DNA from: a virus
Virus record (IMG/VR): IMGVR_UViG_3300020438_000093
Coordinates: 1-40,298 of that record
Direction: 5' to 3' (one strand)
Length of the DNA: 40,298 nucleotides
Made by a program: the position numbers and the translations under genes. Numbering within the stretch: the first letter of the stretch is position 1; each line of letters begins with the position of its first letter. Shown here in pieces: positions 11,780 through 28,519 of the stretch. The notes under the pieces are model-generated. The model worked only from the letters and a program-made list of their open reading frames with translations, had not been told where the DNA came from and searched no databases.

Positions 11780-14700
11780 TTATAACTCCACGAGCCACCA
11801 TCCCCTATAATTGGATGGTATAGTTCCTGTTTCTGTTCCATCTTTTGCTCCAGCGAATACGAACCCAAATCCAGCATTTCTAGTCTGGACAATCATTTCA
11901 CCACCTTGGTATGCACTACTTAGTCCACCAGAAAGTGTTCCAGTAGCATCACCTTGCATTTGCACACCAACTGGTGCACGAACGATTAATGATGTAGCGT
12001 AGGATAGATTACCTCCTAGGTCAATCATTCTAATCATATCACCAGTCTCTGCATCTGCTGGTAATGTAAACACTGCTGTAGCAGCAATAGCAACAAAGTA
12101 ATTTTTACCAGTTTCAAGTGTTGCGTCAGAAGATTTAAACTCCCAGTTGAGTCCACCATTCTTACCCCAGTATCTATTAACACCGAATGCATCAATAGCA
12201 GCATCCTGACGTATTCTGAATAATCTATCATCATCATTACCAAGACCATTAATTTCTAATGCCTTAGTATTATCTGCTGATGTACGTGCTTGAGCAAGAC
12301 TGTTAATGGTAACTTGACCACCATTAACTGTTAGATCACCAGTACCGATTGCAGATCCAGCAACACCAATACGTGTATCACCAGTCTGTGCATCTACATG
12401 TAACTTAGCAGTAGCAGCATCACCGAATTGAATTCCAGTAGTACCACTGAATACAGAGAAGTCATCATCTATTTGTAAGTGACCAGAAATTTCAAGGTTA
12501 CCCGTAGATACCTGCAAGTAAGCAGACATCAACGCATCATCAGCAGAACCTACTGTACCATCATTCTGCACTCTTAGGTTACCAGCTAACCACTGATTAC
12601 CTCCCTTATCAATGATTGCTTTAGGAGCAGCCTCAGTACCAACACCAACGACTGTGAACTTACCATCACTATCGATAGTTAGTCTAGTGTTAGCAGTTGG
12701 TTGACCATTAATAATCCTAAACTGATTATCAGTAGAATTAGTTGATGCATTACCTGTTAGATTAATACTAAAGTCTTGAGCACCAAGTATAGTAGAATCT
12801 ACACCACCGAAGACAGAATCAATTACGAAACGATCTTGCTGTGCACCATTATTAACACTAAACTTCTCAGCATTAGTATCATTAACAGCAGTAATCCTAA
12901 CAAATTCACCAGTACATGTAGGTGTGTTAGCACCATTTAATCTTAGGTAGTCACCAACATTGAACTGTCCACCAAACTCAGCAAGTGATACAAGATCAGC
13001 ACTAAAGTTGATTATAGCAGATCCAACACTACCTGATATTGGAACAGCACCACCATCAGGATCTAGAGATAGATTAAACCTTGTGACGCTATTACCAGTG
13101 TCATTCACTGCGTTCACAACGAAGTAAGTTGCTGTAGTATTAACTCCTACAATGCTACCAACATTACTGAACTTAACTGCATCACCTGTTCCTAACTCAT
13201 TGATAGGAACTTCAAGTGTATCAGCATTATTTACAAGATTAGATAAAGCAGGAGTTGAAGAAGTCTGTGGTACTCTACCAACTAAGTGAGTAGCATCATT
13301 AGATCTCTCAAGCTTGTATATAACTTGATTATCTGCGTGTATTGCTACAGTTGTACAATCCACACCTCTATTAACTGGAACTATCCTTGTATTAGCATCA
13401 GGACCAGGTGAGACAACCTCAACCAATTCTGTTCCTATGATAAGGATATCACCAATCGCTATTCCTCTGACGTTATTAACTGATAATCTATTATACTCAG
13501 CATCATTTGAATTAGCTGTCCATTGAGTTGTACCAGTACCAGTATCAACTAAGGTATTTTGTAATGTAATACCAGCAGATGTTCCAGGAGTACCACCAAC
13601 CTGTACAGGTGATCCACCTTCAGATGTAGCAATCTGGAATGTACTACCAGTACTATTAATAACCCAGTATGGTGTGCCTACTGCAACACCACCACCAGAA
13701 AGTCCAGTAATATCAGTAAAGTTAACTACGTTACCATCTAAGAAATAGTTCTCATTTACAGAGATAACTCCATTAGCTGCAACACTAGTAATAACTTGGA
13801 AACTATCAATATCAGCGACATACTTGTAGAAGTCAACATTGAGGTTCTGTAAACTACCAGGAGCATGAGCTATCTGTGCTGTATTGAGTTGTTGTCTATC
13901 AACCGTAACAGTTCCACTGTTAGATCCACCATGCATGGTTACATCACCATACATGTCTGTATCACCATTGACTTGCAGAGAGTTTCTAACCTCTGTAGTA
14001 CCAGCGACACCACCAATAGCAAACTGTGATGCTCTAGTTGCAAAGTTTACAATAGAACCAGCACCAGCTCTGGTGAATAGATTGATAGTCTGTGAATTAG
14101 ACTGTAGATCACCACCATTAACATCTAAGTCACCGTCAAGTATGGTCTGAGCATTCTGAACTGTTAGTGTTGAGTTAGCAGTATTACTAAATGCACCACC
14201 CACTGTGATGATTGACTTATTAGTAGCACCATCAGCAACAGTACCAATATTAATTGTCGAATCAATTGATAATGTGTGTACATTTAATGTCGTATCAGTA
14301 GATGATGTACCAACATTGATTGTCTGAGCTGCTGTTGCATCCTCAAAGAGGTTTACAGTAGTTGCAAGACCACCAACATTTAATGTGGTTGCATTAGTAT
14401 CAAGGACATTGAAGGTTGTTGCATTAGTAGTAATACTTCCACCATCAATGTTTACATTACCATCTATATCTGCGTTAGCAATATCATTACCAACAGTTAC
14501 TAAGTGTAATGCATTTGTTTCACCAGATCCTACCTTGATAGTAAGAGTAGAATCTAAATCATCATCAGTTGCATTAATACCAACTCTTGTTTCTAGAGTA
14601 GAAACTCTAAGTGTTGCTAAGTTATCTGATACTATTGAATCTCCACCAACTATCAATGCATCCTTGAGACCAGTCTCAGTCTTAGTTGTAGTTGCTTCAC

Positions 14701-17700
14701 CAGTATAGTTATTGATCGCCTTACCACTAATGAATGCATTACCAACAACATCCAAGTTTGCTCTTGGTTCTTGCTGATTGTAAACTGTACCACTAGCAGT
14801 ATATGTTAGGAATCCATGCTCATGTGAATTATGAGCAGTACGAGCAATGGTGTTAATACCAAGCTTGTACTTACCAATTGTAGCTGTTTCAGTTCTAATT
14901 GCTTCAGAACCTATTACACCAGTCTCTTTCCAATTCTCATCAGATCTTTCAAGAATAACACTTGACTCAGTAGCCCAAGTAAATGTAGTTGTAGGAATGG
15001 AGTTGTTAACAACAAACTCACAGAACCCATCATCTGCACCTGTTTGATCTGCCTTTGTAATTACCCACTTACCATTAACACGTGGATCAGAGAACCCTTT
15101 AATAAGGATTGTCTTACCTACACCAATGTTAATACCACTATCACCATTAGTAAATGCACCAGACCAATGAAGTTGAACAGTATTACTACCGTTAGCCAAA
15201 AGCTGGAGAACTGATGTGTTTGGTATTATTGAGTAGTAGTTAGCATATATCCAAGCAAGAGAACCACTCTGCTCAATTGACCTACCCTTATAAAGGATAT
15301 CGCCTGCTTGTGCATTAGCATCTACCTCAGATGAGTTGTAATATCTTACAAACTGCTCAGGACTAAATGTTGTTGACTGATCAGGTGTTCTGTTGCTAGG
15401 CTCATTCTCACTGAATGAGAAGTTTGTACGTATACTATACTCTTGACCTGGGAATAGTCCTGTACCTCGACCTTTTATGTGATAAACAGCCGTGGAAATT
15501 TTATTCCTACTAAGGGTCATATCACCCTTATTTCTATCAGACCAATTACCTCTAGTTAATGTGTTATCTTCACCACCACCATCACTTCTTGGGTTAGAAA
15601 GAATGGTAAGAGCAGGTGATTCAGTTGGTGGTTGAGTACTAATAATTACTCTGTTATTAAAGTAACCAATACCTTCAACAGTAATCTTATCCTTAAATGT
15701 AACAGGAGTATCAAACGATGTTACCAGTGTAGTGATAATATCTGTATCATCTTCAGATGACTCAAGTTGAGCTTTCTCAAGGAATGTTTCTTCACCAGTG
15801 ATAGCATCAATCTTCTTGTTACCAATGTATAGGTCACCATTACTGTTAAGACCAGTGTAGAATACAATACCACCATCCTCACGTTTTGCTTGTGAGTAGT
15901 AGTCTTGGAACTCAGAAAGTATAACTTCCTGTCTTGCTGGTAGACCAGATGAATAGTTACCTGGACCAAAACCAAGGTATTCAAACGTATGGTTACCAGA
16001 TCTAGCAATAGATGGTCTTCTTAGTTCAATGTATACCTTCTGATCATGAACAGATTCAGTATCACCAGCAATAGGAATCTGTCTCTGTTCTGAACCAGCA
16101 GTAGCATTACCTGTAACAGCTTGGAGTGTATTACCAGCATTAGCATAGGTGTATCCACTAAAGTATCCTGACTGAGTTAAATCTTCAATTGCTTCCTTAG
16201 TCATTGACCTCTTATAGTCATTGACCCAGACAAGACCATGTGTATAGTTGTCTGCGAAACTGTTAGCAGCAGGTGGATCAGTAATTAATGCATTCTTAGT
16301 ACCATTGTTGTCTATAACCTGATACCATAGAGGATCATTCTTATAGTCCAGTGGATAGAGTGAGGAGATAGGCTGAGAGAACCTAAAGTTCTGGAAGTTA
16401 TTACCAACACCAGCACCACGAGGTAGAGGTGAAATGTTACCACGAACAGCAGTTAGATAGTAGATACCATCTTGCTGTCCAGCAACACGTTCCTGAATAA
16501 TCTCAGAATCAAAGATATAGAATGTATCATCAATGTCTTTAACATCTTCAACAGAAACAACCTTGTAGGTATTACCAACAGTATCATTCAATGTATCACC
16601 AGGTGTGACTGTGAATACATTAGAATCACCAACCACATAAAGATTATTACCTTTACTGTCTCTACCACCATTAACATCTGCTTGCTGATCAGCATAAACA
16701 GCACCTTGCTGGAATCTTGTGGCAGTTAATGGATTGTATGTTGGTCTAGCACTTACATCCTTAAGGATGATATAATGCTTAGTATCAGCACCTACAACTA
16801 CGGAGAAGTATGCATGAATATATCCAAATCCACTGCTACCACCAGTCCACTCTACTATGTTAGTAGGAGCAGATGTAGTCTTACTTGTAGCAAATGAACC
16901 TGCTTGTGGAGCATTAATCTCTACAGTATGGAATACTGTATTCTTTAAGTTTGGTGCGTTAGTATCGTCAACTGTGTGATCAAATACAGTAAGTTCTAGT
17001 TTCTCAGAACCTGATGTACCTATCTTCCTAGCAGAACGAATACTAAATCGAATATAGTTATCAGTATTAACAATGCGAGGATGATTATCTGGATCATATA
17101 TGTTCTTAGCGGTTAATGTACCAGCCTGTACTGCTGCATCAAATGCAGTCTTGGTCATACCAAGTGTCTCAGTTGAGTTAGCAGACTGTGGGTTACGGAA
17201 ATCAGCGATATCAGGAGATCCACCAACTTTCTCAAGTACTATATTCTGTGGGAGTAGATTACGCTTAGTATCAGTACGGATCTTCATTACAAATCCGTTG
17301 TTTGGTTGCCTTACAGAACCAGGATATGCTTTTGGTTGTACATATCTTAAACGATAGATACGATCATTAGCAACACGATCATCCTTAAGACGAGTATAGT
17401 AGGAATCTGTTGTCTGTGTCTGACCTGAAGAAGGATCATAATCACTCTCTTGAATCCTAGTGATTATATTATTATCAAGACTAGTCTCATCCTTAAGGTT
17501 CAAGTACCACAATCCATCAGGTATTGGTGGAACTCTAGATGCAGCAGTATCAACAAACGTAGGATCAAATCTCATTGGTGATGTACGCTTGTTAGCGAAG
17601 ACATACCAGAATTGATCTGGATTATTAACTAGAACTACCTCTGGTGCACCAGCTATAGCATCAGCAGCAGTAGCAAAGATCTTGAATGTATCTTCTGTTT

Positions 17701-20700
17701 CATACCTTACATAATACTCTTGAGTAGAAGATACCAGAGCTCCACCACCACCAGAAAGTGTAGGTAATGTAGGAGCAGCACCACCATCAGATCCTTCTTT
17801 TCTAAAGAAGACTTTCTGTAACTCGGTAGAAGGTATACCATTCGTTGGCTTATCAAATATATGAGCAACCTCTGTCTTGAATATAGTACCACTTGATCCA
17901 TCAAAGGTAACTTTATATTCATGTAAATCATATGCTGAATCTAATACGTACTGTTCGATTAGAATCTCAACATCCTCATCAAGAGATTCTGTCTCAGGTG
18001 AATAGATGTAAATACCAGCAGCAGCTGCCTCTGCTGACTCAGCAAGCATTAACTTAGTTTGGTCACCACCATCAAATATACCACTGTAAACAGCACCATC
18101 ATTGTAGTTGAATGGTTGTGTGTTACGACCTGGAGCAATTACATAATATTTTCTATTTGGTTGGAACCCAAGTGGTAGACGAACGTCTCTCTCATCTGGG
18201 GTCTTACCTGATTTAGCACGAGCAACCAGTCTTACTGGTGTACCAGTCTCAAACTTATGTGGGTTAGTACCACCAGCATCAACAGTGAATAGAGTTGCAC
18301 GTTGAGCAAACTGATCACTAGATGTAGATGGATTTAATCTTGCAATAGAATTCTGTGATGGAGATGACTTAGTTGTAGCAGCAAACTGTCCAGCATTATT
18401 AGAGTATGCGGTAACACCATCAGTAGTAGCACTAACAAAGGTATGTGCATAAGCACCACCAACCTGTACACCAAACTGCTTACCACGTACAAATGTATGT
18501 GCATAAGCACCACCACTAGCAACAGAAGAACCAAGAGCAGATACAAATGTATGTGCTGTAGTGTTAGAAGAAATACCAACATCTACTGTAATTGTATTAC
18601 CTGTTGTTGCTAATATAGGTATTGATGTATTACTTGCAGGGTCAGATGAACGTGGGTATGTGTGGTTACTACCATGACTATCCTGTCCACAAGTAAAGGT
18701 TAATGAATCATCAGCAATCTTAACAGACTCACCAGCAAGTTTAATACTATCAGCAACAGCACTTACAAATGTATGTGGATAATCACCACCAGTCTCAACT
18801 GCAGCTCTTGTTATGCAATTTGCAGAAGCAGAAACAAATGTATGAGCAGTAGCATTAGTAGATGGAATACTAGTTAATACATTAATAGTAAATCCATTCT
18901 GTGTAACTGTATCAATCTTAACCCACTTACCACTAATAGGATCACTAGGTCTAGGATATACATGGTTAGTACCATTATTATCCTCCATACATGTGAAGGT
19001 TAGAGTATTATCTGCAATCTTGATGAAGTCACCTGCAGCAAATCCATGATTAGCAAGAGTAAATGTTATTACACCTGTGTTAGGATCATATCCAGCAGCA
19101 GTTGGAGTGTAACCAGTATTAGGTACAAATGTATGTGTTGTAGTATTTGTAGATGGTATAGTGGTTAGAACATTAACTGTAATTGTTGTTGCAGTTACAG
19201 CAGTAATGCTTACAGCAGTATCAGATGCTGGATCAGATGATCTTGGATATGAATGATTAGATCCACCACCATCTTGAGCACATGTGAATGTTAAGGAGTT
19301 TGGAGCTAACTTAATAGATGTACCAACAGTCAAACTATGACTACCGATAGTCATCTCCATATCACCTGTTGTTGGATTGTAATCAACAGCAGTAGGGATG
19401 AAACCAACTAGAGGAGATGTACCAACATTAACATCAAAAGTACTATCTGTTACACCAACAACATCAATCCACTTCTTGCTATATGGATCTGTTGTTCTAG
19501 GATATGATTTCTGTGCGGTATCACCATCCATACCACAACTCATTACTAAAGAGTTATCAGCAATTCTTACTCTATCTCCTAGAGAGAATCCATGATTAGC
19601 AACAGTAGTTGTTAAGATACCAGTTACAGGATTATATGAAGCATCAGTAGCTGTATGAGTACTTGGTCCACTAAGAGTGTGACTACCAATAGTAATAGTC
19701 ATCTCACCAGTGGTAGGCTCATAGGTAGCAGCAGTTGGTGTGAAAGTAACCTCTGGTGTTGCACCAACAGCAACAGTTATCTTACCAGTCTGTTTCTTAA
19801 CAGCACCAGCAGTTGCTGATACAAAGTTATGGATAGATGTATCTGGTGAAGGTGATACATTAATTAAGAATGTATCATTAGTAACAGTAGTAACCTCCAA
19901 CCATTCTGTTGAAGCTTCGTCAGTTGCTCTAGGATATGTGTGATTACTTGCGTTATTGTCCTTAGCACATGTAAATGTTAATGAATCATTTACAATCTTA
20001 ACCATACTACCAACTCTGGTAACAGAGCTGTTACCAGCAGAGACAAACTTATGCTCAGATGTATCAGAAGAAATTCCAATCTGAACATCAAATGTATTAG
20101 CTGTTATATTCTGTATAGGTAGTTTCTTACCTGCAGCAGGATCAGTTGCTCTAGGATAACTATGGTTAGTAGCATGACTATCTTTAGCACATGTAAATGT
20201 GATAGAATTGTTAGCAAGGGTAACACTAGTACCAGCAGCAAACTGATGGCTAGCAACAGTAAGAGTTAGTATACCTGTCGCTGGATTGAAAGCAGCATCA
20301 GTTGGTGTATGTGTGCTACGTGCTTTGAATCCATGATTAGCAACAGTAAGTACAAGCTCACCGTTTACTGGATTATAATCTGCAGCAGTCGGTGTATGAT
20401 CTGTCTCCTCTACTGCAGTAACTTCAACCTTATTGTTGTATACTGGATCAGATGTTCTAGGATATGAGTGCTCAGTTGCATTGCTATCTTGAGCACAAGT
20501 AAAGACTAAAGCATCTTTCTCTAACTGTAATGTATTTCCTGTGGATATATTATGAGCACCAAGACTTAATACTAGATTACCAGTAGCAGGGTCATATGTA
20601 GCATCACTAACATTATGTCCTACAAGCGGTGTTGTACCAACATTGATAGTAACAGTATCAGCAGTTATGTTAGTGATATCTCTGATAGCATTCTTATATG

Positions 20701-23700
20701 CTGGATCTCCTACACGTGGATAAGCATGGTTTGATCCATGATTGTCCATACCACAACTGAATGTTAATCCATTCTGATTAATACCAATTTTATTCTGAGC
20801 AGATAGACCATGACCAGCCATAGTCAAAGTCAAATCACCAGTAGCACCATCATATGTTGCACCAGTAGGTGTGAATGTTCCTAATGCCTGAGATGAAATA
20901 CCAGAAGTATCAATACCATACTCTATTATCTGGAATAGAGTAGCCATTGCTGAAATAACATCAGCACAATATATTGCATTAACAGGATTAGGATCAGTTG
21001 TAATTGATGTATCTTTTGTCTGACTGTAAGATGTAACAACACCTGCTCTAGGATTATAAGTTACATTCTGAATAATTGAATTAGCAATCTCTTTTGCTTT
21101 TCTGAAAGTATAGATTGATTGCTCTTCTTCTCCAGCAAGATCAGCACCTACAACATATAGATTAGCAGCATCCCAAACCTTATTGTTTGATCCAAACTTA
21201 ATGTTATATGCAACTGCCTCAATAACATCTACAACGTCATCGTAACAATTAACATTACCACCTGGAACTGTGTGTTGAGGATACTCAATATTCATATCCT
21301 TAACTGATACATCAGCAATGTATTCCTTATTAGCAAGTAACAAGTCATGTGCATCAGCAAAACGATCACCAACTGGGTTAATACCTTGGTTAATGATTGT
21401 CTTGATGTTATTCATCAAGGTTGCTATAGCTTGTGCAGTATCATTACACTGAGGGTATACTGTATCCTGAGTAAGATTTGTATCTACATCACCTTCTATA
21501 GATGAGTATACACCTTTACGAACACCATTCTGATCTTCTAATGAGAACCATAGGTTAGCAGATGAATTAGATCCAGTAGCATTTCTAGCAGCACCTGTGA
21601 AAGGTGTACTTCTTAGTCCAGCAACAACACTACCAAGCTCAATAGTTGTTGGATTAACAATACTCTTGATGTAGGTATCAGTAGGAATATTTGCTGTTGT
21701 TAAAGTATTAGGATCAGCAGTTGTATTATTAGCATTAACTCCTGTATATTCCTGAACCTTCATACCAATAGCAAGTCCAACAGTTGATGGAACTGTTACT
21801 AGTGAAGAGTTATTAGAAATTGAACATCCTGTCTGTAAGTATGTCCAGTTACGAATAGATGCAATAGCAAGGTCACGAGCATATTCAAAACCTTCAATGG
21901 TCTCAAACTTCTCGTTATCAATGTAATTTAACTCACCAGCACTGAAGTATGACTCAGCAGCCTGAATAGTGTTGATGTTACCACCAAGACGTAAATCGGA
22001 GATAACAGCATCGAGAACCAATCCAACGTCTCTCTGACACTTGCTGATGATAATGTTCTTACTAAGAAGAGCTGGGTACTTTGTAGTGATATATCCATAA
22101 GTCTCTTCTTGAATAAGTTCTTTATTATCCTCTATTCTGTTAGCAGCATCTTGTGACTTATTATCTACAACTACTGTACTAGGATTAAGGATCTGTAATG
22201 ATGATGGATAGAAATTATAACCAGAAGGTGATAATGTAGCATTATAGATTGCATCAGGTACAGGAGATTTACCAGAAGAAGCAGAATATGGATCTAACTC
22301 AACATATATCTTCTCATTACTCTTAGCACCTATTCTATATCCATTAAGAGTAGCAGCAGGACGCTTCTTAGGATCTGTAACATTATCGCTACCACCAAAG
22401 TAAAGTCTTGTATTAGTATCACGTGATGCTTGTACATCCCATGTATAGTAATCAACTCTATCTTTGTTAGCACTTGAATCAATTAATTTTTCTGGTGGTA
22501 TGATAGAATCAATATATCCACCTTTATCTTGTGCAAAGGAATATCCTTTATGTCCCTTAGCATGAAGTGATGTATTACCGAAGTTACTGTTAGAGTTGGT
22601 GATACTCATATCACCACCACTTTCCATTAGGAAGTGATCAGCGAAACCAACAGCGAAGATGCTAACACACTGAATGAATGCGTCATTAATTGCCTTTATG
22701 TGGGCGTTTCTCCAGTCATCCTTCCAATATGCATCACCCTTAGTGTGGTAAGGTACTGTTGCAAATGCATCAGAAAGAGATGCTTGGTTCCAAGTGTTTG
22801 TAAACTTATCGTATCTGATGAATGCTCTATCGTCTTTCTGTAGAGATACACCAGTGTACTGAGCACAGACCATAGACTTGAAGCCTGTGACCTTACTACC
22901 ATCTGCTAATAGACCACAGATACCCCATGTAGACCTGATAGACAGGTTAAACATGTATGGAGAAGCAGATTCAACTGAGTCTACCTCTGCCTGTACATAA
23001 GCACCATTAGAGAGACCATTAGCAGTAGAATATGTTTGATTATTCTGTAAGTTTAAAGATGTTACAGTACCAGGTAGAGTAAAGCTAAACCTTCTTCTAT
23101 TAAGTGGATCTATACTAGCAACATTAAATGTTCCATTCAATGCTTCATCTAGACCATTATTTTGTACAGCAAAGAACTGGTTCTTAATATAACCATGAGC
23201 AATCTTTGTTGTTACATTAACAGTAATCTCACCCTGTGGAGTTGAATCAACTACCTGTAATGATTCAATAGATCTTAAGTCAGATAGAGGACCAACAATA
23301 CGAGTCTCACTTACATTACCACTAAACTCATTCTGATCATCAATAGTAGGTTGATACTGTGCAAACGATTGAGCAACCTTCTTATAGTAAAGTTCTAGTT
23401 CAGGTTTCTCAGCATACTGGAATACAGTAATCTTGTGGTGTGAGTACTCAGGTATAGCAAGGTTAGCATTATCGTTCTTACGATAGTAAACCTTACCAAC
23501 ACCAGCAGTAGTATCAAATAAAGGAGACTTAGTAGTAACGTCTCCATCCTTAATTGTAAACTGCCAGATGTAAGCACCACCAGTTACATTGAAGATAGAA
23601 GTTCTACCTTGCTCTTTATCAGCAGGATCAGGAACATATAAAGGACGTATTATAGTTCTACGAAGATCATAACCAATTAAAGAACAGCCACGAGGAACTA

Positions 23701-24088
23701 TACAACCACCATCAGTTCCATTAAACTTGTATAGGACGTTATCAGGATTGGAAAGATCCACAACCGAAGAATCTGTCCAAGCATTAGTAAACTGATCAAA
23801 TCCGAAAACAGGAGTTCCAGATGTTGAATTTAATCCAGGTCTATTATCAATAAAGTGATCACCAGGCATAAGCATGATGGTGAACTCATCAAATCGATCA
23901 TTATCGATTCCAGGTGCATAAGAATATCTTGCTACCTCTATAAATGCCCTCTGAATAGTTACAAATGGGCGGTTTGGTGAGTTACCTCTATTGTCTAATT
24001 CATCAGAAGCATTGAAATCATCTGGTGAGACATACAAATATCTACCAGTTTTACTGGAGATTAAGTTATCTAATCTTGTTAATGGCAT
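11780..24088 (-). CDS. Giant tail-fibre-like virion protein (4102 aa)
   Basis: One uninterrupted 12.3-kb frame from ATG 24088. The N-terminus (GRYLYVSPDDFNAS, RPFVTIQRAFIEVARYSYAP, FTIMLMPGDHFID) resembles the pectate-lyase-like beta-helix start of large cyanophage fibre proteins. Residues about 1100-1820 hold eight copies of a Cys/Asp/His-containing module described separately. The C-terminal third is a beta-strand-rich, Thr/Asn/Gly-rich repeat region (NVGTSSTDTTLNV, VNGDTDMYGDVTM) typical of trimeric fibres, ending NYRGWWLVEL. It is probably the long tail fibre or a major adsorption structure. It has its own late-type promoter 42 nt upstream and is followed by collar-domain fibres. Confidence 0.85.
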   Translation of the reverse strand: MPLTRLDNLISSKTGRYLYVSPDDFNASDELDNRGNSPNRPFVTIQRAFIEVARYSYAPGIDNDRFDEFTIMLMPGDHFIDNRPGLNSTSGTPVFGFDQFTNAWTDSSVVDLSNPDNVLYKFNGTDGGCIVPRGCSLIGYDLRRTIIRPLYVPDPADKEQGRTSIFNVTGGAYIWQFTIKDGDVTTKSPLFDTTAGVGKVYYRKNDNANLAIPEYSHHKITVFQYAEKPELELYYKKVAQSFAQYQPTIDDQNEFSGNVSETRIVGPLSDLRSIESLQVVDSTPQGEITVNVTTKIAHGYIKNQFFAVQNNGLDEALNGTFNVASIDPLNRRRFSFTLPGTVTSLNLQNNQTYSTANGLSNGAYVQAEVDSVESASPYMFNLSIRSTWGICGLLADGSKVTGFKSMVCAQYTGVSLQKDDRAFIRYDKFTNTWNQASLSDAFATVPYHTKGDAYWKDDWRNAHIKAINDAFIQCVSIFAVGFADHFLMESGGDMSITNSNSNFGNTSLHAKGHKGYSFAQDKGGYIDSIIPPEKLIDSSANKDRVDYYTWDVQASRDTNTRLYFGGSDNVTDPKKRPAATLNGYRIGAKSNEKIYVELDPYSASSGKSPVPDAIYNATLSPSGYNFYPSSLQILNPSTVVVDNKSQDAANRIEDNKELIQEETYGYITTKYPALLSKNIIISKCQRDVGLVLDAVISDLRLGGNINTIQAAESYFSAGELNYIDNEKFETIEGFEYARDLAIASIRNWTYLQTGCSISNNSSLVTVPSTVGLAIGMKVQEYTGVNANNTTADPNTLTTANIPTDTYIKSIVNPTTIELGSVVAGLRSTPFTGAARNATGSNSSANLWFSLEDQNGVRKGVYSSIEGDVDTNLTQDTVYPQCNDTAQAIATLMNNIKTIINQGINPVGDRFADAHDLLLANKEYIADVSVKDMNIEYPQHTVPGGNVNCYDDVVDVIEAVAYNIKFGSNNKVWDAANLYVVGADLAGEEEQSIYTFRKAKEIANSIIQNVTYNPRAGVVTSYSQTKDTSITTDPNPVNAIYCADVISAMATLFQIIEYGIDTSGISSQALGTFTPTGATYDGATGDLTLTMAGHGLSAQNKIGINQNGLTFSCGMDNHGSNHAYPRVGDPAYKNAIRDITNITADTVTINVGTTPLVGHNVSDATYDPATGNLVLSLGAHNISTGNTLQLEKDALVFTCAQDSNATEHSYPRTSDPVYNNKVEVTAVEETDHTPTAADYNPVNGELVLTVANHGFKARSTHTPTDAAFNPATGILTLTVASHQFAAGTSVTLANNSITFTCAKDSHATNHSYPRATDPAAGKKLPIQNITANTFDVQIGISSDTSEHKFVSAGNSSVTRVGSMVKIVNDSLTFTCAKDNNASNHTYPRATDEASTEWLEVTTVTNDTFLINVSPSPDTSIHNFVSATAGAVKKQTGKITVAVGATPEVTFTPTAATYEPTTGEMTITIGSHTLSGPSTHTATDASYNPVTGILTTTVANHGFSLGDRVRIADNSLVMSCGMDGDTAQKSYPRTTDPYSKKWIDVVGVTDSTFDVNVGTSPLVGFIPTAVDYNPTTGDMEMTIGSHSLTVGTSIKLAPNSLTFTCAQDGGGSNHSYPRSSDPASDTAVSITAVTATTITVNVLTTIPSTNTTTHTFVPNTGYTPTAAGYDPNTGVITFTLANHGFAAGDFIKIADNTLTFTCMEDNNGTNHVYPRPSDPISGKWVKIDTVTQNGFTINVLTSIPSTNATAHTFVSASANCITRAAVETGGDYPHTFVSAVADSIKLAGESVKIADDSLTFTCGQDSHGSNHTYPRSSDPASNTSIPILATTGNTITVDVGISSNTTAHTFVSALGSSVASGGAYAHTFVRGKQFGVQVGGAYAHTFVSATTDGVTAYSNNAGQFAATTKSSPSQNSIARLNPSTSSDQFAQRATLFTVDAGGTNPHKFETGTPVRLVARAKSGKTPDERDVRLPLGFQPNRKYYVIAPGRNTQPFNYNDGAVYSGIFDGGDQTKLMLAESAEAAAAGIYIYSPETESLDEDVEILIEQYVLDSAYDLHEYKVTFDGSSGTIFKTEVAHIFDKPTNGIPSTELQKVFFRKEGSDGGAAPTLPTLSGGGGALVSSTQEYYVRYETEDTFKIFATAADAIAGAPEVVLVNNPDQFWYVFANKRTSPMRFDPTFVDTAASRVPPIPDGLWYLNLKDETSLDNNIITRIQESDYDPSSGQTQTTDSYYTRLKDDRVANDRIYRLRYVQPKAYPGSVRQPNNGFVMKIRTDTKRNLLPQNIVLEKVGGSPDIADFRNPQSANSTETLGMTKTAFDAAVQAGTLTAKNIYDPDNHPRIVNTDNYIRFSIRSARKIGTSGSEKLELTVFDHTVDDTNAPNLKNTVFHTVEINAPQAGSFATSKTTSAPTNIVEWTGGSSGFGYIHAYFSVVVGADTKHYIILKDVSARPTYNPLTATRFQQGAVYADQQADVNGGRDSKGNNLYVVGDSNVFTVTPGDTLNDTVGNTYKVVSVEDVKDIDDTFYIFDSEIIQERVAGQQDGIYYLTAVRGNISPLPRGAGVGNNFQNFRFSQPISSLYPLDYKNDPLWYQVIDNNGTKNALITDPPAANSFADNYTHGLVWVNDYKRSMTKEAIEDLTQSGYFSGYTYANAGNTLQAVTGNATAGSEQRQIPIAGDTESVHDQKVYIELRRPSIARSGNHTFEYLGFGPGNYSSGLPARQEVILSEFQDYYSQAKREDGGIVFYTGLNSNGDLYIGNKKIDAITGEETFLEKAQLESSEDDTDIITTLVTSFDTPVTFKDKITVEGIGYFNNRVIISTQPPTESPALTILSNPRSDGGGEDNTLTRGNWSDRNKGDMTLSRNKISTAVYHIKGRGTGLFPGQEYSIRTNFSFSENEPSNRTPDQSTTFSPEQFVRYYNSSEVDANAQAGDILYKGRSIEQSGSLAWIYANYYSIIPNTSVLQLLANGSNTVQLHWSGAFTNGDSGINIGVGKTILIKGFSDPRVNGKWVITKADQTGADDGFCEFVVNNSIPTTTFTWATESSVILERSDENWKETGVIGSEAIRTETATIGKYKLGINTIARTAHNSHEHGFLTYTASGTVYNQQEPRANLDVVGNAFISGKAINNYTGEATTTKTETGLKDALIVGGDSIVSDNLATLRVSTLETRVGINATDDDLDSTLTIKVGSGETNALHLVTVGNDIANADIDGNVNIDGGSITTNATTFNVLDTNATTLNVGGLATTVNLFEDATAAQTINVGTSSTDTTLNVHTLSIDSTINIGTVADGATNKSIITVGGAFSNTANSTLTVQNAQTILDGDLDVNGGDLQSNSQTINLFTRAGAGSIVNFATRASQFAIGGVAGTTEVRNSLQVNGDTDMYGDVTMHGGSNSGTVTVDRQQLNTAQIAHAPGSLQNLNVDFYKYVADIDSFQVITSVAANGVISVNENYFLDGNVVNFTDITGLSGGGVAVGTPYWVINSTGSTFQIATSEGGSPVQVGGTPGTSAGITLQNTLVDTGTGTTQWTANSNDAEYNRLSVNNVRGIAIGDILIIGTELVEVVSPGPDANTRIVPVNRGVDCTTVAIHADNQVIYKLERSNDATHLVGRVPQTSSTPALSNLVNNADTLEVPINELGTGDAVKFSNVGSIVGVNTTATYFVVNAVNDTGNSVTRFNLSLDPDGGAVPISGSVGSAIINFSADLVSLAEFGGQFNVGDYLRLNGANTPTCTGEFVRITAVNDTNAEKFSVNNGAQQDRFVIDSVFGGVDSTILGAQDFSINLTGNASTNSTDNQFRIINGQPTANTRLTIDSDGKFTVVGVGTEAAPKAIIDKGGNQWLAGNLRVQNDGTVGSADDALMSAYLQVSTGNLEISGHLQIDDDFSVFSGTTGIQFGDAATAKLHVDAQTGDTRIGVAGSAIGTGDLTVNGGQVTINSLAQARTSADNTKALEINGLGNDDDRLFRIRQDAAIDAFGVNRYWGKNGGLNWEFKSSDATLETGKNYFVAIAATAVFTLPADAETGDMIRMIDLGGNLSYATSLIVRAPVGVQMQGDATGTLSGGLSSAYQGGEMIVQTRNAGFGFVFAGAKDGTETGTIPSNYRGWWLVEL
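18630..20900 (-). repeat. Eight-copy protein-coding repeat inside the giant fibre gene
   Basis: Each unit contains a core of the form (L/I/V)-(T/V)-(F/M)-(T/S)-C-x2-(D)-x5-(H)-x-YPR-x2-D, for example TFTCAKDSHATNHSYPRATD. I count eight cores between about residues 1106 and 1816. Each is generally preceded by TPTAA-x-Y-(N/D/E)P-x-(T/N)G-x(n)-H-x-(L/F) and followed by a valine-rich strand, often ending HTFVSA. The units are clearly recognisable at DNA level but not identical. The conserved Cys, Asp and His could be structural or metal-binding; that is a guess. Confidence 0.8.
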
Positions 24089-25564: not shown

Positions 25565-25646
25565 TGGGCAGAGTTGGATTTGAACCAACGTAGGCTTAGC
25601 CAACGGATTTACAGTCCGTCTCCTTTAACCACTCGGACATCTACCC
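25565..25646 (-). tRNA. tRNA-Tyr(GTA)
   Basis: 82 nt, folds as a class II tRNA: acceptor GGGTAGA/TCTGCCC (one G-T), D stem TCC/GGA, anticodon stem ACGGA/TCCGT with loop CTGTAAA (anticodon GTA), long variable arm with GGC/GCC stem, T stem GTTGG/CCAAC with TTCAAAT. Discriminator A; CCA is not encoded. Last member of the tRNA-Thr/tmRNA/tRNA-Tyr cluster. Confidence 0.95.
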
Positions 25647-25666
25647 TAGAGGGGCATTTCACCCCT

Positions 25667-25906
25667 ATGAGTTACTTGGGTAACAAGGCTAACTTAACCC
25701 CGATCACTCTTAAACAGTCGCTAATTCAGCGATGCGAGTGAATGCTACGATGTTATTCGCAGCAGGTGTATCTGTTTTTGCAGATGTTGTTTGCTTATCC
25801 AAGCAGGTTTCAGTCCCGATCCTTATACCCTGTCGAAGCCTGGGCAGCCCCATGATGGAGCTGAGGGGAATCGAACCCCTGTCCAGAATGTAGGTGTCGT
25901 CACCTA
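25667..25906 (-). ncRNA. ssrA: Circularly permuted (two-piece) tmRNA, cyanobacterial type
   Basis: On the minus strand the 3' acceptor piece comes first: T arm GGACAGGGG-TTCGATT-CCCCTC, then CAGCTCC-A (discriminator at 25856). After only 4 nt (TCAT) the coding piece begins GGGGCTG (25851), which pairs with CAGCTCC, followed by a D-like CAGGCTTCGACAGGG. The tag reading frame (25760-25710) is ANNIVAFTRIAELATV then TAA; its ANNIV...F-R start matches cyanobacterial tags. The stop sits in a helix (CACTC/GAGTG enclosing TCGCT/AGCGA), as in tmRNA helix 5. tmRNA releases stalled ribosomes and tags the product. Outer ends are approximate; hairpins flank both sides. Confidence 0.9.
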
Positions 25907-25920
25907 TCCTCAGAAGAGGA

Positions 25921-25992
25921 TGCCATCAGAGGGATTTGAACCCCCGACCTTGGCTTTACAAAAGCCCTGCACTACCACTGTGCTATGATGGC
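25921..25992 (-). tRNA. tRNA-Thr(TGT)
   Basis: 72 nt: acceptor GCCATCA/TGATGGC, D arm with AGTGGTAGT loop, anticodon loop TTTGTAA (anticodon TGT) on a GGCT/AGCC stem, T stem GGGGG/CCCTC-type with TTCAAAT. Discriminator A, no encoded CCA. A TCCTC-TTCT-GAGGA hairpin follows immediately and separates it from the tmRNA acceptor piece. Confidence 0.95.
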
Positions 25993-25994
25993 AA

Positions 25995-26094: not shown

Positions 26095-26628
26095 CTATGG
26101 TTGTAGTATATCATGCCTTCGATAAAATTTCAAGTGCCCCCACTTAGCACCCCAAACCTGTTGATCTGTCTCTAAGTCGAAACCCTTATCAAGAACCCAA
26201 TAAGAATCATCAGTCAATTCAATTTCGTTAAGAAGATATGTCTCTTTACCCTTGTACGTGACTGTACAGTCTGAGCTTGCTGTCTTGCCGTGATAGACAA
26301 CACCAGACCTTACGAATTTAATATCACACCCCAATCTCCTCTGCAGAGGAGCTTCTTTTAGTTTATTTAGATTTGAACACAAAACATATTGTCTAGGATC
26401 ATCTATGGAATAATTCTGAATAATATAACCGTCATCAACCGTAATAACTTTTAAGATGAACTGTCTGTATGGATCTTTAGGACAATAATCATAACACTGC
26501 TCACCATAAAATATCCCATCGCTTAGTTTAACGTGGGATATATTAATATGAGCATAACGACTGGGATCCTTCATTGCTTGGTGCTGGTTACCAAAGTGAC
26601 CAACTAAGCAATCTTCAAAGCTTTTCAT
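26095..26628 (-). CDS. cpeT: CpeT/CpcT-like chromophore lyase
   Basis: 177 aa from ATG 26628 (MKSFEDCL); a TTG five codons earlier is less likely. FEDCLVGHFGNQHQAMKDPSRYAHI and GIFYGEQCYDYCPKDPYRQFILKV match the conserved (G)-x-F-(S/G)N-x-x-QA and GEQ-x-YD-x(n)-PYRQ signatures of the CpeT/CpcT family, beta-barrel-like lyases that attach phycobilins to phycobiliproteins. This family is a known auxiliary gene of cyanophages, thought to maintain light harvesting during infection. It overlaps the preceding hypothetical by 14 nt and is transcribed from the sigma70-type promoter near 28.0 kb. Confidence 0.88.
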   Translation of the reverse strand: MKSFEDCLVGHFGNQHQAMKDPSRYAHINISHVKLSDGIFYGEQCYDYCPKDPYRQFILKVITVDDGYIIQNYSIDDPRQYVLCSNLNKLKEAPLQRRLGCDIKFVRSGVVYHGKTASSDCTVTYKGKETYLLNEIELTDDSYWVLDKGFDLETDQQVWGAKWGHLKFYRRHDILQP

Positions 26629-26893
26629 CAGGCATAGTTTCAACTGTTATAACAGGTACATCAAATAACAGAGGATGTATCTCTTCTTCTAGTAAATATT
26701 CTGAATTCTTTAAGATCTGTTCTTGAGTGAACTCTGGGTTCAGTGCACACTCAAATAATATCCATCTATCTTCTCGCTGTTCTCTGGTTAGTGGATCATA
26801 TGTAAAGGGAGTATTCTCTATGAAATACATCTTTACTGGTGTTCCATCTAACCAGCAGTGTTTTATATTAACCCTGTAACCAGCGAACGCCAT
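26615..26893 (-). CDS. Hypothetical protein (92 aa)
   Basis: ATG 26893 is chosen over the GTG one codon before it. The product includes YRVNIKHCWLDGTPVKMYFIE, then DPLTREQREDRWILFECALNPEFTQEQIL, acidic at the C-terminus. I do not recognise a family. Its overlap with cpeT implies co-translation. Confidence 0.65.
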   Translation of the reverse strand: MAFAGYRVNIKHCWLDGTPVKMYFIENTPFTYDPLTREQREDRWILFECALNPEFTQEQILKNSEYLLEEEIHPLLFDVPVITVETMPDEKL

Positions 26894-28092: not shown

Positions 28093-28488
28093 TTAGAATG
28101 TGAACTTAGCACCGATCTTAGCAGCGTAGTCACGAACTGTGTCGCCATCGCTGTCTTCGCCGTTAGTAGCACCAGAAAGCTCTGCATAGATTCCTAGATC
28201 TTCAGAAACTCCATAAGAAGCACCAACCTTACCAGAGATTTCTGTCTCTGTATCATCAGTAGAATCAGCATGGTTCAAAGAAGGACCACCCTGTACGTAG
28301 TAAGCAATCTTACCTTCAGCACCTGCAGTACCTTCGTATCCAAGATGGATATCTGTACCAGTAGATGAATAATCTCCATCAGGATATGAAAGGTTTGACT
28401 CAACATTCACGTATGGACCAGCAAAAGCTGCACCAGCGAGTAGGAATGGAGATGCTGCAACAGCAGCGATTGTTGATTTGATAGACAT
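28093..28488 (-). CDS. Outer-membrane-like beta-barrel protein with signal peptide
   Basis: 131 aa from ATG 28488. The N-terminus SIKSTIAAVAASPFLLAGAAFA is a clean Sec signal peptide (cleavage after AFA). The mature part alternates strand-like stretches (VNVESNLSY, TDIHLGYEG, AEGKIAYYVQGG, SGKVGASYGV) and ends AKIGAKFTF. The C-terminal aromatic residue is typical of outer-membrane barrel proteins. The predicted mature chain of about 109 residues would form only a small barrel or an oligomer. It has its own structured leader and terminator and sits alone between the baseplate and auxiliary operons. Role unknown; possibly host outer-membrane alteration. Confidence 0.7.
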   Translation of the reverse strand: MSIKSTIAAVAASPFLLAGAAFAGPYVNVESNLSYPDGDYSSTGTDIHLGYEGTAGAEGKIAYYVQGGPSLNHADSTDDTETEISGKVGASYGVSEDLGIYAELSGATNGEDSDGDTVRDYAAKIGAKFTF

Positions 28489-28519
28489 GTTTGTTTTTAA
28501 AGTGTCTCGCATGGGCATT

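Follow-up and report, generated by a model that had tools for sequence, protein, structure and literature searches.

A cyanophage two-piece tmRNA gene with an altered tag end

The tmRNA locus of a T4-like cyanophage fragment

The DNA analysed here, hereafter the window, is the whole 40,298 bases of the IMG/VR record IMGVR_UViG_3300020438_000093, a fragment of a T4-like cyanophage, a virus of ocean cyanobacteria; among its PHROGs matches are those to baseplate hub and tail lysozyme, tail tube and short tail fibre proteins. The closest named phages, AG-345-P14 and P-SSM7, match the window over just 2–5% of 28–38 kb. On its minus strand, between the genes for tRNA-Thr and tRNA-Tyr, the window carries a permuted tmRNA gene, as a sequence-only reading of the same DNA had proposed and on which RF01851, RF04321 and ARAGORN agree. 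The locus comprises the following features:

28093–28518, cyanophage outer-membrane-like barrel, a cyanophage-typical neighbour
26095–26643, CpeT-family protein, a cyanophage-typical neighbour
25918–25993 (−), tRNA-Thr (TGT), immediately upstream of the tmRNA (ARAGORN)
25651–25937 (−), permuted cyanobacterial-type tmRNA gene (span matched by RF01851; ARAGORN)
25864–25880 (−), T arm AGGGG TTCGATT CCCCT (read from the sequence)
25857–25863 (−), acceptor stem 3′ strand CAGCTCC, on the acceptor piece (read from the sequence)
25856 (−), discriminator A, with no CCA encoded after it (sequence and parsed viral genes)
25852–25855 (−), spacer TCAT, 4 nt, between the two pieces (read from the sequence)
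25845–25851 (−), acceptor stem 5′ strand GGGGCTG, with which the coding piece begins; forms the G3-U70 pair (sequence)
25713–25760 (−), tag frame ANNIVAFTRIAELATV, stop TAA at 25710–25712 (sequence, ARAGORN)
25718–25732 (−), possible helix-5-like hairpin TCGCT-GAATT-AGCGA, just before the stop (read from the sequence)
25713–25718 (−), final two tag codons ACT GTT (Thr-Val), Ala-Ala in hosts
25565–25646 (−), tRNA-Tyr (GTA), immediately downstream of the tmRNA (ARAGORN, Rfam covariance search)

The identity of 25937–25651 (−) as a permuted cyanobacterial-type tmRNA gene was confirmed by a covariance-model search, the check that the sequence-only reading had suggested. RF01851 (cyano_tmRNA) matches there over the full model (1–288) with 130.6 bits (E 2.2e-35), far above its gathering cut-off of 70 bits, and RF04321 (tmRNA_permuted) also matches the gene (74.9 bits, E 9.8e-13). 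ARAGORN independently called a tmRNA* with the tag AKTDTPAANNIVAFTRIAELATV*, and the alpha_tmRNA model (RF01849) had no match in the window. The extent first given for the gene, 25667–25906, covers its core, but the model match is some 15–30 nt longer on each side; upstream it runs into the 3′ part of tRNA-Thr, and this stretch is probably leader.

The gene order is permuted, with the acceptor 3′ piece preceding the coding piece, and the order, the GGGGCTG/CAGCTCC pairing and the T arm described earlier were all located in the sequence, where the two complementary strands include the G3-U70 alanine identity pair. The TCAT spacer is expected to be removed on processing, and the GCT just before the tag frame (25763–25761) may be the resume codon. 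The folded 257-nt RNA has an energy of −89.4 kcal/mol (z −3.96 against shuffles). A helix-5-like stem, which had been placed at the tag stop, is borne out in part: RF01851 has a stem at the same place and the hairpin lies inside the fold of the 257-nt RNA, but a fold of the short region pairs 25718–25732 otherwise, hence the hairpin is not firm.

In its gene order, acceptor and T stems, G3-U70 pair, discriminator A, tag start and stem near the tag end, the window gene resembles the cyanobacterial permuted tmRNA of RF01851. It differs in being phage-borne, in ending its tag with Thr-Val rather than Val-Ala-Ala, in its sixth tag residue (Ala, versus Arg or Ser in hosts) and in its RF01851 score, which is roughly 299–336 bits for the best-scoring hosts listed. 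The tag start fits AN(N/K)IV-x-F-x-R, and the claim that it begins ANNIV-x-F-x-R as in cyanobacteria holds both for the ARAGORN tag and in the comparison of viral with host tags. The unusual part of the tag is its end, however, whereas only its start had been remarked on.

Upstream of the tmRNA, promoter-like sites were as many as in shuffled sequence, i.e. at chance level. Downstream of the tRNA/tmRNA cluster is an open frame of 4102 codons (window 11780–24088, −) without a Pfam match; close to this position a tail fibre protein is encoded in S-SSM7 and an S74-peptidase-domain protein in Sf-FS3.

Viral relatives and tRNA genes nested in the spacer

Published work already covers two-piece tmRNAs from marine phages, among them cyanophages, which answers the earlier question of whether such an RNA had been described. 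Buchholz et al. (2022, PMC9004378) report tmRNA in 402 of 18,146 phage genomes, with 53 unique two-piece forms, 50 of them marine or aquatic; cyanophages are among the phages with a two-piece tmRNA, and the tree of that study places cyanobacteria together with their phages in one lineage. The tmRNAs of this marine-phage set (Melnitz, Mosig, AG-345-P14 and others) are phage-borne as in the window, and AG-345-P14 has a homologue of the window gene, whereas the Melnitz tmRNA is of an alphaproteobacterial type and is linked to a glutamine riboswitch. A 2025 database holds 79 phage tmRNA sequences (PMC11915505).

Homologues of the window tmRNA were found with a distant-similarity blastn search in Sf-FS3, AG-345-P14, S-CAM1, S-CAM3 and S-SSM7, all exceeding the RF01851 cut-off. 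The records of Sf-FS3, S-CAM1, S-CAM3 and S-SSM7 have no tmRNA annotation for the gene. Hypothetical proteins are drawn across it in S-SSM7 (SSSM7_025, L005:5004-5222) and S-CAM3 (BOW87_gp053, L004:4959-5099); these are probably not real proteins.

Pattern scans of IMG/VR and the blastn homologues gave a cyano-type viral set of 119 loci (97 distinct sequences). Acceptor stems were counted in the 69 genes that could be parsed, the remaining 28 of 97 going unread as exact loop letters and a tRNA-free spacer were demanded. The stem is fully paired in 67 of these 69 genes, with pair 5 varying compensatorily (G-C, A-U, C-G, U-A), and G3-U70 is present in 68, the lone exception looking misparsed. 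Furthermore, the discriminator A is kept across the parsed genes and all five T-stem pairs form in 69/69, with variation. ANNIV is invariant among viral tags despite synonymous codon changes, a constancy that is partly built in as two search patterns required ANNIV; cyano-type genes at loci that match tag-independent patterns all start AN(N/K)IV, although cyano-type is itself defined by the same motif. A quick tree separates viral from host tmRNA genes by a single branch with support 99. Judged from its sequence, with a covarying acceptor stem and with G3-U70 and the tag start kept, the RNA looks functional.

The short spacer of the viral genes overlaps the host range in length. Some viral tags are longer than the 16 residues of host tags, at 24–25 residues, e.g. 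ANNIVAFSRILTREFARTDELVTA (L005, L100 and relatives), and others are shorter, at 14.

In 17 related viral loci the acceptor and coding pieces are separated by an entire tRNA gene:

tRNA-Tyr, nine contigs: L034, L036, L055, L081, L101, L103, L113, L123, L134
tRNA-Asn, eight contigs: L084, L096, L100, L114, L176, L193, L194, L195

By contrast, the window has its 4-nt spacer with tRNA-Tyr just downstream of the tmRNA, and no nested tRNA occurs among the 94 hosts. The nested gene sits 2–4 nt past the discriminator A and 1–4 nt ahead of the acceptor 5′ strand, and gaps this short (1–4 nt each side) fit excision by tRNA-processing enzymes. The RF01851 match spans the insert in all five loci tested, and on the tree the nested-tRNA label shows at least four changes (Tyr one, Asn three). 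A search of titles and abstracts returned nothing relevant on tRNA genes nested in permuted tmRNA; such genes provide a direct test of how a two-piece tmRNA gets cut.

Tag ends in viruses and hosts

The window tag ends in Thr-Val (last three residues ATV), without the terminal Ala-Ala. The host tags compared come from Prochlorococcus and further picocyanobacteria in its order and end in VAA in 94/94 cases, an Ala-Ala end being outside the Rfam definition of RF01851 but universal in these hosts. Final Ala-Ala, which matters for recognition by ClpXP, is missing from 78 of the 119 cyano-type viral tmRNAs and from 36 of their 47 distinct tags. The last three residues at the viral loci are VAA (n = 41), ATA (n = 31), VTA (n = 16), ATV (n = 10), ALV (n = 8), VAV (n = 6) and rarer endings (n = 7), with VAA retained by about a third of the genes. 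The homologous genes of named cyanophages also differ from the window in their tag ends, which are TVAA in S-CAM1 and S-CAM3, LVTA in S-SSM7 and LATA in Sf-FS3.

The difference between host and viral tag ends gave Fisher's test values of 5e-28 when loci are counted and 3e-6 when distinct tags are, with kinship ignored. With the tag end excluded from tree building, at least 17 switches between AA and non-AA were counted within the viruses, a rough figure as many forks are weak. Alpha-type permuted viral tmRNAs from the same collection end in AA in 55 of 60 cases, hence the cyano-type change is not something that viral contigs or ARAGORN calls show in general. Tag-independent patterns gave 41 AA and 82 non-AA ends among 123 NNIV-type loci, and AA in one of 14 NKIV-type loci (counted by eye), in a set that is not strictly unbiased as some loci were first fetched by tag patterns.

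Replacing the last or second-last Ala of the tag raises KM for E. coli ClpXP with little effect on Vmax (PMC7652416). The strength of tags fused to proteins in Synechocystis follows LVA > AAV > ASV (PMC3446811), and in E. coli AAV and ASV are less destabilising than LAA and LVA (PMC9097571). Among the measured endings LVA, AAV and ASV, the ATV of the window is most like ASV, and by analogy we expect its degradation signal to be weakened, not abolished. The weakening may be slight, as the commonest altered viral endings, ATA and VTA, lie outside the cited measurements. We found no discussion of cyanophage tag ends in open-licence papers, including the available text of Buchholz et al. (PMC9004378). 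The phage two-piece tmRNA itself is already known; the altered tag end and, in some relatives, the nested tRNA may be features not remarked on before.

Function and alternative explanations

The best explanation as a whole is probably a working phage two-piece tmRNA that acts with host SmpB and has a weakened degradation tag. We infer that the gene, intact and maintained by the phage, would be transcribed, probably together with its flanking tRNAs, and that host tRNA-processing enzymes would cut the transcript so as to separate the acceptor and coding pieces. The kept G3-U70 pair would allow charging by the host alanyl-tRNA synthetase. With host SmpB, the RNA would then rescue ribosomes that stall on broken mRNA in the infected cell and would append the tag; proteins tagged in this way would be expected to be poorer ClpXP substrates, and so degraded more slowly, than host-tagged ones because their tag is without an Ala-Ala C-terminus, hence rescue would be kept and degradation turned down. 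Searches of the window and of 16 related phage records turned up no SmpB gene, therefore the RNA would need host SmpB and would act beside the host tmRNA; the earlier suggestion that it could replace host trans-translation is too strong and goes beyond the evidence. More tentatively, and with rather less than even confidence, we propose that cyanophages have their own tmRNA lineage in which repeated replacement of the final Ala-Ala has partly uncoupled rescue from destruction, such that infected cells would recover their ribosomes without ClpXP rapidly degrading the tagged proteins, and in which some viruses would release a spacer-nested tRNA with both pieces by a single round of tRNA-processing cuts.

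The strongest rival is that the tag end merely drifts in a functional phage tmRNA kept for rescue only, as a short lytic infection would impose no selection for degradation of tagged proteins. The many endings (TA, TV, LV, AV, LA, PA, SV, VA), the repeated changes of state and the altered codons, mostly one step away from GCN, are all in keeping with drift. However, the 97 viral genes use just Ala or Val in the final position and just T, A, L, V, P or S in the one before it, and alpha-type viral tmRNAs keep AA, which argues against pure drift and leaves it a possible but doubtful account. Less likely again is that the codons changed as a side effect when the tag-end hairpin was rebuilt, selection acting on the RNA structure and not on the peptide. 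RF01851 does have a stem at the tag end, and folding predictions for many viral genes put the Thr codon's first base opposite a U, at a place where the G of a host Ala codon pairs with C, but G-C is equally good for the stem in host and viral VAA genes, and the predicted pairing of the short region differs between near relatives. As the last codons lie in or near the stem, RNA structure may nevertheless drive part of the change at the tag end.

A decoy role, in which the RNA ties up SmpB or blocks trans-translation by the host, would have a precedent in mycobacteriophage DS6A, which has a tmRNA-derived RNA of the tRNA-like domain only, and a molecule similar to it inhibits tmRNA (PMC4131195, PMC11915505). 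The DS6A RNA has no tag, unlike the window gene, and a decoy would not need the tag frame, stop codon and charging pair that are all kept, making this explanation very improbable. We give marginally less credence still to a functionless, decayed or captured host fragment, left as an attachment-site remnant or carried as a passenger. PMC11915505 describes tmRNA genes as frequent integration sites, and some host genomes contain broken second copies, but the viral gene is whole with an open tag, its stem covaries and its lineage is distinct in many contigs, whereas the remnants found in hosts are broken and not called by ARAGORN.

Proposed purposes of phage tmRNA, according to PMC9004378, are upkeep of the translation machinery or the tagging of host proteins for amino-acid recycling. 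If the tag signal is weakened as the preferred explanation holds, this would count against the recycling idea for cyanophages. The viral tags are furthermore a natural set of degradation-tag endings for studies of ClpX recognition in cyanobacteria.

Host genomes were also searched for tmRNA copies of the viral type, and the second hits were decayed remnants or tRNA-level or short matches, with no viral-type copy among them. Three picocyanobacterial genomic loci (L274, L275, L276) are decayed second tmRNA copies, perhaps left by integration events. A further picocyanobacterial locus (L277, G006:C1:926930-927148) is a second, short permuted tmRNA-like gene which scores 65.9 bits, under the cut-off, and is not called by ARAGORN; its frame, read by eye, is ANNIKRTERTLAIAA.
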